37,356 nucleotides of DNA. Source: a virus. Made by a program: the position numbers and the translations under genes. The notes beneath the pieces were generated by a model. The model did no database searches and was not told the DNA's origin. It was given only the letters and a program-made list of their open reading frames with translations. Of this stretch, positions 33,016 through 36,005 are shown in pieces. Position 1 is the stretch's first letter. Each line of letters starts with the position of its first letter. The stretch is taken from IMG/VR virus record IMGVR_UViG_3300021247_000261, positions 1 through 37,356 of that record, one strand, 5' to 3'.

Positions 33016-33064
33016 GAATAATCATACATCGGAGAACGTGATGGGGCAAGCGCGATGGGCCTGA
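33008..33064 (+). CDS. Possible leader peptide before the helicase gene
   Basis: An 18-codon ORF, MTENNHTSENVMGQARWA, with AGGGA at a proper distance from its ATG. Its stop (33062-33064) lies just inside the helicase start (ATG 33055). It may serve translational coupling rather than make a functional peptide. Confidence 0.4.
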   Translation: MTENNHTSENVMGQARWA

Positions 33065-35019
33065 CTGAATACCGTGATTTCATTGCAGGACGTGCGCCTG
33101 CATCGCAGCGATTTGGATTTGACCCGCATCCGATTAACCAAGCAGCAAAGACACACCAGGCAAACGTCCTGAATTTTGCGCTAAACCGTGGCAAGTCTGC
33201 GGCGTTTCTCGACACTGGACTTGGTAAGTCGTTTATTGAATTGGAGTTTGCGCGGCAGTGCGCAGAAGAAACTGGCAAGCCTTCGCTGATCCTGACCCCG
33301 CTTGCCGTTGCTGCCCAGATGGTGCGAGAAGGCCAGAAGTTTGGCATTGATGCGCGTCAAATCCGCGAACAGCATGAAGTTGGCGCTGGCGTTATGGTGG
33401 CAAACTACGAACGGCTTTCCAAGCTTGATCCTGCATCATTTGGCGCTGTGATCTTGGATGAAAGCAGCATCCTGAAAAGCTACGCTAGCAAAACGCGCGT
33501 CATGTTGCAGGATGCGTTTATTGACACGCCTTACAAGCTGGCAGCAACTGCAACGCCAAGCCCGAATGACCATACCGAACTCGGAAACCATGCTGAGTTT
33601 CTTGGCATCATGCGGCAGCAGGAAATGATGTCAAAGTGGTTTATTAATGACACCGCAACCGCTTCGCAAGAATGGCGCTTGAAAGGCCATGCAACTGGTG
33701 ACTTCTGGGCTTTTGTCGCGTCATGGTCGCGGTGCGCTACACTTCCTTCCGATCTTGGCGGCGATGATACTGGATACGTTTTGCCCGCCATTGATCTGCA
33801 CATGCATACAGTTGCTGCTGACCGCATGGAAAACATCGGGCAAGGTATGCTGTTTCGCATCCCTGAAATGTCCGCCACTAGCTTTCATGAGGAAAAGCGG
33901 CTGACTATCAAGCATCGGTGCGAATTGGCCATTTCTATTGTATTTTCAGATTTTCGTAATAAACTGGCAGAAATTGGCAGCGGAGATAGCACATGCCTTG
34001 GAAGCCAGAATATGCAGCCGCAAGGCGGAAACGATACCAAGCTGATCCAGCGGAACGAGAGCGAAGAAAGTCTCAAGGCAGGACGCCAGAAGAAAACGCC
34101 GCATACATGCGAGAATATTACGTTGCAAACCCAGAAAAGTTTGCCAACACAAAAGAGCGCAGGGACAGAAACAACGCCGCCAGAAGGGCAAAATACGCCA
34201 GTGATCCTGAGTATGCAGCAAGAATGCGCGCCAGCGCAAACAGCCGCGATCCAGCGTCAAAAAGAAACGGTCGCCTTAAGTCAACATACGGGATCACCCA
34301 AGATGACTATGAGCGAATGCTTTCAGATCAGGGACGCGCTTGCGCAATTTGTGGCGCAGCCCACGAGGATAGGCGCGGGAAAATCCTGCACGTCGATCAT
34401 TGCCACAGAACTGGAAAGGTCAGGCAACTCTTATGCACAAGCTGCAATACGGCTCTCGGCAAGATGCGAGACGATACAGACAGGCTTAGATCAGCTATCG
34501 AATACTTGGAGCGCCATAAAGGCTGACCCATGGCTTGTGTTTTGCGAGACGAACGAGGAGCAAGACTTTTTGGAAACGGCGTTCGGGTCAATGGCCTTTT
34601 CAGTGCGTGGGTCAGATGATCCAGATGAAAAAGAGCGCAGAATTCTTGCATGGTGTGATGGGGAGCGCCCTGTGCTGATTAGCAAAACCAAGATTGTAGG
34701 TTTTGGCATGAACTTCCAACATTGCCGGAACGTCCTATTTGCATCTGTGAACTTTAGCTACGAAGCCTTTTATCAAGGCGTAAGACGTGTTTGGAGATTT
34801 GGTCAGGGCAAAACTGTAAATGTGCATGTAGTTCTTGCTGACACCGAGGCGTCGATCTGGAACATTATCAACGTCAAATCTGACAAGCACGATGAAATGA
34901 AACGCGCCATGGCCGATGCTATGCGGTCATTGCAATCTGAAACATCAACCCGCGTCAAATATGAACGCCCGCTGGATTTGGCATTTCCGGCATGGATCAA
35001 ATCGGAGAAAGCAGCATGA
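33055..35019 (+). CDS. SNF2-like helicase, interrupted by an HNH gene
   Basis: The 654-codon frame has SF2/SNF2-type motifs: Walker A DTGLGKS (53-59), motif II LDESS (134-138), motif III TATPSPND (165-172), and a C-terminal lobe with ISKTKIVGFGMNFQH and motif VI QGVRRVWRFGQ (574-584). Residues about 297-489 do not match this fold: they are Gln/Thr/Ser-rich and are the other-frame reading of an HNH endonuclease gene (33993-34526). Joining ...CELAISIV to ADPWLVFCETNEEQ gives the sequence expected for an uninterrupted enzyme. The frame remains open across the insert, so the product could be a helicase with a 193-residue linker, or nonfunctional, or restored by an unknown process. It overlaps the next gene by four bases. 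Confidence 0.8.
   Translation: MGLTEYRDFIAGRAPASQRFGFDPHPINQAAKTHQANVLNFALNRGKSAAFLDTGLGKSFIELEFARQCAEETGKPSLILTPLAVAAQMVREGQKFGIDARQIREQHEVGAGVMVANYERLSKLDPASFGAVILDESSILKSYASKTRVMLQDAFIDTPYKLAATATPSPNDHTELGNHAEFLGIMRQQEMMSKWFINDTATASQEWRLKGHATGDFWAFVASWSRCATLPSDLGGDDTGYVLPAIDLHMHTVAADRMENIGQGMLFRIPEMSATSFHEEKRLTIKHRCELAISIVFSDFRNKLAEIGSGDSTCLGSQNMQPQGGNDTKLIQRNESEESLKAGRQKKTPHTCENITLQTQKSLPTQKSAGTETTPPEGQNTPVILSMQQECAPAQTAAIQRQKETVALSQHTGSPKMTMSECFQIRDALAQFVAQPTRIGAGKSCTSIIATELERSGNSYAQAAIRLSARCETIQTGLDQLSNTWSAIKADPWLVFCETNEEQDFLETAFGSMAFSVRGSDDPDEKERRILAWCDGERPVLISKTKIVGFGMNFQHCRNVLFASVNFSYEAFYQGVRRVWRFGQGKTVNVHVVLADTEASIWNIINVKSDKHDEMKRAMADAMRSLQSETSTRVKYERPLDLAFPAWIKSEKAA
33993..34526 (+). 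CDS. HNH endonuclease, recombination endonuclease VII type
   Basis: A 177-residue endonuclease nested in the helicase gene in another frame. Residues 1-90 are basic and repeat-like, with three similar blocks ending (Y/E)A..R(R/M)..., probably the DNA-binding part. The HNH part has C117-x2-C120 (CAIC), VDHCHRTGKVR (D135, H136, H138), then LLCTSCNTALG with C148-x2-C151 and N152. This is the endonuclease VII-like HNH family, often mobile. GCGGAG eight bases before ATG 33993 allows separate translation. The stop codon lies exactly where the helicase homology resumes. It is probably a homing endonuclease. Confidence 0.88.
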   Translation: MPWKPEYAAARRKRYQADPAERERRKSQGRTPEENAAYMREYYVANPEKFANTKERRDRNNAARRAKYASDPEYAARMRASANSRDPASKRNGRLKSTYGITQDDYERMLSDQGRACAICGAAHEDRRGKILHVDHCHRTGKVRQLLCTSCNTALGKMRDDTDRLRSAIEYLERHKG

Positions 35020-36005
35020 AACAACCTGAGTATCAAGGCGCGGGATGGGCAATCCACAATAGCGATTGCATTGAGGGAATGTGGGCTATGCCAGAACATT
35101 CCGTTGATTGTTCGGTGTTCAGTCCGCCGTTTGGGGACCTTTTTGTGTATTCAGACAGCGAGCGTGACCTTGGCAATGCCGGAACTGGTCAGGCGTTTAT
35201 CAATCAATACTCTTTCTTTGCCGAGGCACTGACCCGCGTGATGAAGCCGGGGCGGATGACGTGCGTTCACTGCACTGACCTGCCGATGCGCAAGGGGCGG
35301 GATGGGGCGATTGGCCTGCAAGATTTTTCTGGAGACCTAATCAAAGCGCATACCGCCGCAGGCATGATCTATCACGGGCGTGTGACGATCTGGAAAGACC
35401 CTGTGGTGGAAATGCAGCGCACGAAAGCATTGGGCCTGCTGTATAAGCAGATCCGCAAGGATAGCACTATGAACCGCGTCGGGATGCCTGACTATATGCT
35501 GTTTTTCCGCGCGCCTGGTGACAATCCTGACCGCGTAGAACACTGCGCGCCGGGTGACGAAAAGGAACGTGTGCGGATTGCAAAGGCATGGCTGACTGAA
35601 ATGCACCGCCATGGCCTAGCATCAAATGTGCCAGATGATGCGATGATTGCGGAACTGATCAAACATGCCGAGTTTGACGTTTACGAGTGGCAAAAACTTG
35701 CATCGCCTGTGTGGATGAATATCCAGCAAGGCAATGTGCTAAACCGCATGAAGGGAACGAACGACGAGCGCCACGTTTGCCCGCTGCAACTCGATACCAT
35801 TGAGAACTGCATGCGGCTTTACAGCAAGCCCGGCGATGTGATTATGGACCCGTTCAACGGCATCGGCTCGACAGGCTATCAGGCGGTCAAGATGTTCCGC
35901 CGCTATCTTGGGTTTGAGTTGAAACCTGAGTATGCAAAGCAGGCTGACAAAAACCTGAAAGAGGCAGAAGCATCGGTTGGCGATTTGTTTGCGGTGGCGT
36001 CATGA
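35016..36005 (+). CDS. DNA N4-cytosine/N6-adenine methyltransferase
   Basis: 329 residues from ATG 35016, which overlaps the helicase stop (ATGA) and follows GGAGAA; an in-frame ATG at 34992 is less likely. Motif IV is SPPF (36-39) near the N-terminus and the AdoMet-binding motif I is DPFNGIGSTG (278-287) near the C-terminus, so it belongs to the beta-class order of amino-methyltransferases; SPP(F/Y) can be N4-C or N6-A. The long middle (about 110-250) is the target-recognition region. No partner nuclease is present, so the enzyme probably protects the phage genome. Its position directly after a SNF2-like helicase is common in phages of this type. Confidence 0.88.
   Translation: MKQPEYQGAGWAIHNSDCIEGMWAMPEHSVDCSVFSPPFGDLFVYSDSERDLGNAGTGQAFINQYSFFAEALTRVMKPGRMTCVHCTDLPMRKGRDGAIGLQDFSGDLIKAHTAAGMIYHGRVTIWKDPVVEMQRTKALGLLYKQIRKDSTMNRVGMPDYMLFFRAPGDNPDRVEHCAPGDEKERVRIAKAWLTEMHRHGLASNVPDDAMIAELIKHAEFDVYEWQKLASPVWMNIQQGNVLNRMKGTNDERHVCPLQLDTIENCMRLYSKPGDVIMDPFNGIGSTGYQAVKMFRRYLGFELKPEYAKQADKNLKEAEASVGDLFAVAS

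Follow-up and report, generated by a model that had tools for sequence, protein, structure and literature searches.

The mob genes that split the genes of phages (for example, mobE in the nrdA gene of Aeh1) are homing genes that interrupt their hosts without being spliced out, leaving the reading frame of the host gene broken. In 2025, Arsenault, Gosselin and Gogarten described HNH endonucleases that are inserted out of frame within host genes whose own frames stay open; the hosts were a methylase (ShiLan) and gp60 of phage Pacc40 (PMC11855218). Their report dealt with a few mycobacteriophage cases, and left open both the manner in which the endonuclease is produced and the question of whether the open frame is maintained (PMC11855218). 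Homing endonucleases that carry the catalytic motif of Endonuclease VII (DHHRN) are also known, as exemplified by F-CphI (PMC6083498).

The locus considered here lies on the plus strand of a viral contig 37,356 bases long (the ‘window’, meaning the whole stretch of DNA that was analysed). Its host gene (positions 33055 to 35019) encodes an SNF2-like superfamily II helicase of 654 residues, identified as such by its two RecA lobes and retained helicase motifs, and its end is overlapped by a neighbouring DNA methyltransferase gene (34992 to 36005, plus strand) that is fused with the helicase into one gene in some relatives. Between RecA lobes 1 and 2 lies an insert (33943 to 34521) that is flanked, in a domain search, by an SNF2-related match at residues 111-201 and a Helicase_C match at residues 491-583. 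Nested in the insert is a gene for an Endonuclease VII-type HNH protein of 177 residues (33993 to 34526), relative to which the helicase is read in the +1 frame; the ORF matches Endonuclease_7 (PF02945) with an E value of 2.7e-27, above the curated cut-off, conserves the CxxC, DH and CxxCN residues of Endonuclease VII, and has Hpy99I and T4 endonuclease VII among its solved relatives. An original prediction, made from the letters of the window alone, had described helicase motifs on both sides of the segment, an HNH ORF within it in a frame other than that of the helicase, a stop codon overlapping the resumed helicase residues A-D-P-W, a helicase frame free of stops where the third frame has them, and little sequence to spare around the HNH gene. 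All of these hold: the HNH stop codon, TGA (34524 to 34526), is formed from the host codons GCT GAC (the A-D of A-D-P-W), the helicase frame contains no stops across the insert as against nine in the third frame, and only about 50 bases of the insert fall outside the HNH ORF. The borders that it gave also stand, to within about 15 nucleotides, when the gene is aligned to uninterrupted helicases (L005-L008, L010 and that of phage Pan4), which place the insert in the linker that joins the RecA lobes. The reading that we favour, with a probability of about 0.8, is that of an overprinted, unspliced homing-type element within a helicase gene.

Searches by helicase, by HNH protein and in cultured phage records yielded 26 distinct helicase-embedded cases (Gordonia phage Squiddly is one of them; the near-identical Malisha was not counted separately). 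Eleven of these (L064, L066, L068, L069, L072, L073, L130, L206, L208, L209 and L283) occupy a second site, immediately upstream of motif V, where the empty relatives L338 and L342 carry the sequence KRCLCDMPRFRTTGCGHGADGPRRLISK. Two additional cases place an Endonuclease VII gene out of frame within a terminase intein, the intein frame being open throughout: Gordonia phage Nordenberg (L200, NC_055777.1; HNH gene at 1386-1847; E values of 1.9e-11 for the intein and 3.8e-21 for Endonuclease VII) and Mycobacterium phage Nozo (L201, MG925353.1; HNH gene at about 2465-2923; E values of 3e-12 and 9.8e-18, respectively). At the position occupied in Nordenberg, Vivi2 and similar Gordonia phages also give a match. 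In the database records of Squiddly, Malisha, Nordenberg and Nozo the host gene alone is annotated at the locus, and it is in this way that gene annotation misses such endonucleases; an Endonuclease VII-like ORF in Microbacterium phage LimaBean (L203, OQ938583.1, positions 40115-40624 of the record) likewise has no gene annotated. When contigs of bacterial genomes were scanned using the HNH alignment, no relative could be confirmed, and plasmids gave only partial matches. The HNH tree is poorly resolved, with insertion sites and free-standing genes intermixed. This mixing, together with the separate position of the intein pair (100/98) and the grouping of L220 with a free-standing gene (95/83), points to several acquisitions of the element. 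One pair of carriers, L073 and L074 (on the same contigs as L210 and L211), has an in-frame TAA downstream of the insert, at about position 3635 in L073 (SF*GLYQA, where relatives have SYE or SFE), so the host gene may not be intact in every carrier; the stop could represent a pseudogene, an error or recoding.

Comparison with the empty allele L005 shows that more than the insert itself has been exchanged. The two sequences are 88% identical up to position 33929 and 86% identical again from 34840, while lobe 2 between those points is only 47-64% alike and instead resembles the lobe 2 of other insert carriers. This contrast indicates that the tract from 33930 to 34839 (plus strand), comprising the insert and about 320 bp of lobe 2, was acquired, and that the foreign DNA extends beyond the insert, since the downstream part of lobe 2 was replaced along with it. 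Such a pattern is evidence of recombination and is consistent with homing accompanied by co-conversion, the HNH protein being its presumed cause. An Endonuclease_7 match was absent from the three empty relatives that were searched for it (L005, L006 and L007), and the presence of the element among related phages is patchy, which corresponds, at the level of recombination, to the mobility of ShiLan-kind elements. No target-site duplication was evident at the insert in the window, where the two junctions share no 8-mer. At site B, a direct repeat of short length, TGTATTTGC, is present at each insert end in L130 and L209 only, and could be either the trace of a target site or shared microhomology. 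The carriers examined (the window, L003, L004, L009 and L047) also share a lobe 2 type, LISK..I.GFGMNFQ, in place of the VTKPKLAGFGVNWQ of empty alleles; one might speculate that the former is perhaps a target resistant to cleavage.

Selection was compared among the window, L003, L004, L009 and L058. The HNH gene has evolved under purifying selection (pN of 0.12-0.28, against pS of 0.64-0.88), as have both halves of the helicase (dN/dS of 0.05-0.24 where computable). When the HNH DNA is instead read in the host frame, pN is about equal to or above pS, a nearly neutral pattern from which the linker sequence would appear to be free apart from the exclusion of stops. Read that way, the insert becomes a linker of about 190 residues that is polar (36% S, T, N and Q, versus 19% in the flanks) and predicted to be disordered. 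An AlphaFold2 model built from a 28-row alignment has two confident RecA lobes, for which Foldseek returns SNF2-family motors, and an insert that is predicted to be disordered except for a short helix at residues 419-433, with pLDDT under 50 at residues 311-413 and 436-478; from the single sequence the pLDDT was 36.

One challenge to this picture is that the helicase frame might be open by chance or through codon composition, and that the insertion merely disrupts the helicase. Other long spurious ORFs are present in the window, and because synonymous recoding gives a probability of about 0.05-0.12 for an open +1 frame in the window alone, the case made by this single locus is a weak one. The argument rests on repetition, the frame being open in 28/28 cases. 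Over these (26 in helicases and two in terminase inteins), no stops were observed in the host frame while synonymous recoding predicts 78, and the other shifted frame contains 269 against 292 expected, in line with expectation (78, 269 and 292 being sums of per-case rows); in the AT-rich L209 and L073 alone, 7.8 and 9.6 host-frame stops would be expected. Among free-standing relatives the corresponding frame is stop-free in 2/98, and in 0/60 of those with at least 100 matched codons. The phase of the open frame also follows the host: in L214 and L220, where the helicase is read in the +2 frame of the HNH gene, it is the +2 frame that is open and the +1 frame that contains five stops in each. 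Embedding was judged by the flanking helicase halves as well, to avoid circularity, and every locus that was fetched by its HNH and flanked by both halves was among the open cases; related loci bearing host-frame stops, which the original prediction had named as the finding that would count against it, were looked for and none was present among these, nor was any embedded locus with a closed host frame met with among the loci fetched by HNH. The cases share ancestry, and so the 28 do not amount to 28 independent trials, and the log10 P of -40 obtained by summing over them exaggerates the strength of the evidence. Nevertheless, with purifying selection still acting on lobe 2, downstream of the insert, we regard chance as an extremely improbable account; it is rejected on the set rather than on the window alone, and on these comparative grounds the openness of the host frame across relatives is not fortuitous.

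The remaining alternatives accept the insert but differ on how it is expressed, or on what it encodes. Introns are frequent homes of homing endonucleases, and the insert might be an undescribed, self-splicing intron-like RNA, the helicase then being made without a linker and its open frame being incidental. A new type of intron could escape Rfam, in which no intron family matched in silico (groups I and II having been rejected on that result); but just 50 or so bases lie beyond the HNH ORF, and the host phase is open in every case, those in the +2 phase included, although splicing would make an open frame unnecessary, all of which makes this possibility quite improbable. An intein within the helicase was rejected as well, there being neither a domain match nor a constraint on the host frame; an intein splicing domain was found only in the terminases L200 and L201. 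It is still harder to credit that the gene is functionally split, with an N-terminal half that terminates within the insert or is cleaved, a separately made lobe 2, and the HNH gene nested between them. The window does have a GTG in the helicase frame about 10 nucleotides past the HNH stop at which such a restart might occur, but this codon is not conserved, being ATT or another codon in relatives, and a split gene does not require an open frame across the insert. The nested protein might also be a phage resolvase or repair nuclease, rather than a homing endonuclease, that moves by ordinary recombination only. T4 endonuclease VII, one of its solved relatives, is a Holliday junction resolvase, and the replaced tract could have moved passively. 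Against this, the gene is patchily present, at two helicase sites, in two phases and in two inteins, the nearest empty relatives lack Endonuclease_7, and the study of F-CphI assigned putative homing and restriction enzymes to a clade apart from the resolvases (PMC6083498); we therefore judge a resolvase to be unlikely.

Candidate signals for starting the nested gene can be named. A Shine-Dalgarno site, GGAG (33982 to 33985, plus strand), lies 7 nucleotides before the HNH ATG in the window and at the same position in L003 and L004. Upstream of it, TAAACT (33960 to 33965, plus strand) is the remnant of a leader element, TGnTAAAYTGGCA, that is found 6 nucleotides before the start in other elements and may act as a promoter. 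Six elements lacking a Shine-Dalgarno site (L198, L065, L072, L130, L209 and L283) have TGnTAAAYT 6 nucleotides before the start. L064 has TTGACA-17-TAAATT-6-ATG (without TGn; about 2964-2998) directly before its nested HNH gene, with a consensus -35 and a -10 placed as in leaderless genes, and a free-standing relative, L060, has TTGTCT-17-TAAAAT-6-ATG (with TGn). As background, an extended -10 at 4-9 nucleotides before an ATG occurs at a frequency of 0.5%, and a four-base Shine-Dalgarno site at 8%. A scan of viral contigs with the leader pattern gave three matches: the L072 contig (already in the set); L283, which thereby added a nested case to the set; and L285, with the same leader and start. 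From its sequence and placement we infer that the TGnTAAAYT leader is a promoter of the leaderless type; its retention in nested copies could alternatively reflect conservation of a host-frame peptide, FxxKLA, but this would not account for L060. A fusion by frameshifting of the helicase N-terminal half to the HNH protein was ruled out, because a TAG (33987 to 33989, plus strand) stands in the HNH frame directly before its start.

The central claim of the original prediction is thus the reading best supported by the comparative sequence data: the HNH gene would have arrived by a homing-type insertion and be translated by internal initiation, and the helicase, its frame kept open, would carry about 190 residues as a linker. 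On this reading, we infer that both products are translated, that splicing does not occur, and that the HNH protein cleaves and homes. A mobile Endonuclease VII-type homing element would enter a phage helicase at the loop joining its two motor lobes and stay there without being spliced. The endonuclease would have a start codon to itself and be read out of frame with the helicase, using a Shine-Dalgarno site here and an apparent leaderless promoter of its own in some relatives, and would terminate at a stop made of host sequence. The helicase frame would continue through the insert, giving a helicase with a disordered linker, and selection on the helicase would purge insert variants with a host-frame stop, while hardly constraining what the linker contains. 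Presumably, the endonuclease cuts empty alleles, and repair of the cut then copies it in along with part of lobe 2. More generally, we lean, if only slightly, towards the view that ‘overprinting’ constitutes a third, splicing-free route by which a homing gene can reside inside a host gene, besides introns and inteins: the cassette would carry the signals for its own initiation (a Shine-Dalgarno site or a leaderless promoter that is portable), end in host codons, stay open in whichever shifted frame the host uses, and have been gained on several occasions, both at two sites in helicases and in terminase inteins. Many phages show the pattern, and with a phase-switched control (L214 and L220), matched free-standing relatives and named candidate start signals, the invasion of genes by overprinting, free of splicing, becomes directly testable.

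The original prediction had held that no example of this exact form was known. That no longer stands, as the ShiLan domain and Pacc40 gp60 have been published (PMC11855218), albeit with other HNH families and with selection for the open frame untested there. The kind is thus already known, and the present case is a widespread Endonuclease VII variant of it; in the literature searched, no earlier description was found of an Endonuclease VII version, of its two sites in helicases, of a second phase, of such start signals or of comparable statistical evidence. The terminase intein cases may already be covered by a preprint on actinobacteriophage inteins of non-canonical architecture (10.1101/2025.01.02.630785) that is cited in PMC11855218.

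The helicase cases share with ShiLan an endonuclease that is out of the host frame, a stop-free host frame, the lack of an intron or intein signature (L200 and L201, in contrast, lie in inteins), a patchy distribution and, by its description, a host read in the +1 frame of the HNH gene. ShiLan differs in that its HNH domain has two flanking zinc fingers, lies in a methylase and starts at a GTG with no ribosome binding site found, leaderless initiation having been proposed, whereas here an Endonuclease VII-type gene lies in a helicase and has an ATG with a Shine-Dalgarno site, its relatives occupy two sites in two phases, and the open frame was evaluated statistically. Pacc40 gp60 (L367, NC_011287.1, Mycobacterium phage Pacc40), which is annotated as the large subunit of an anaerobic ribonucleoside reductase, likewise hides an out-of-frame HNH gene, in the same type of helicase-methylase gene and in the same phase, but the HNH is of another family by sequence and sits at a third helicase position (before GYDLPP). 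F-CphI has the Endonuclease VII catalytic motif in common with the nested protein and is known as a homing endonuclease, a role that is predicted here, but its gene is a separate ORF (ORF177 of cyanophage S-PM2) and is not overprinted on another (PMC6083498). With inteins the element shares a host frame that passes through the insert and the carriage of a homing endonuclease (a putative one here); the helicase insert has no splicing domain, whereas in the terminases a true intein is present with the Endonuclease VII gene out of frame inside it. Finally, mobE in nrdA of Aeh1 and, on the favoured reading, the nested gene described here are alike in being unspliced homing genes that interrupt a gene of a phage, and differ in that the host frame is broken in the former and open in the latter.
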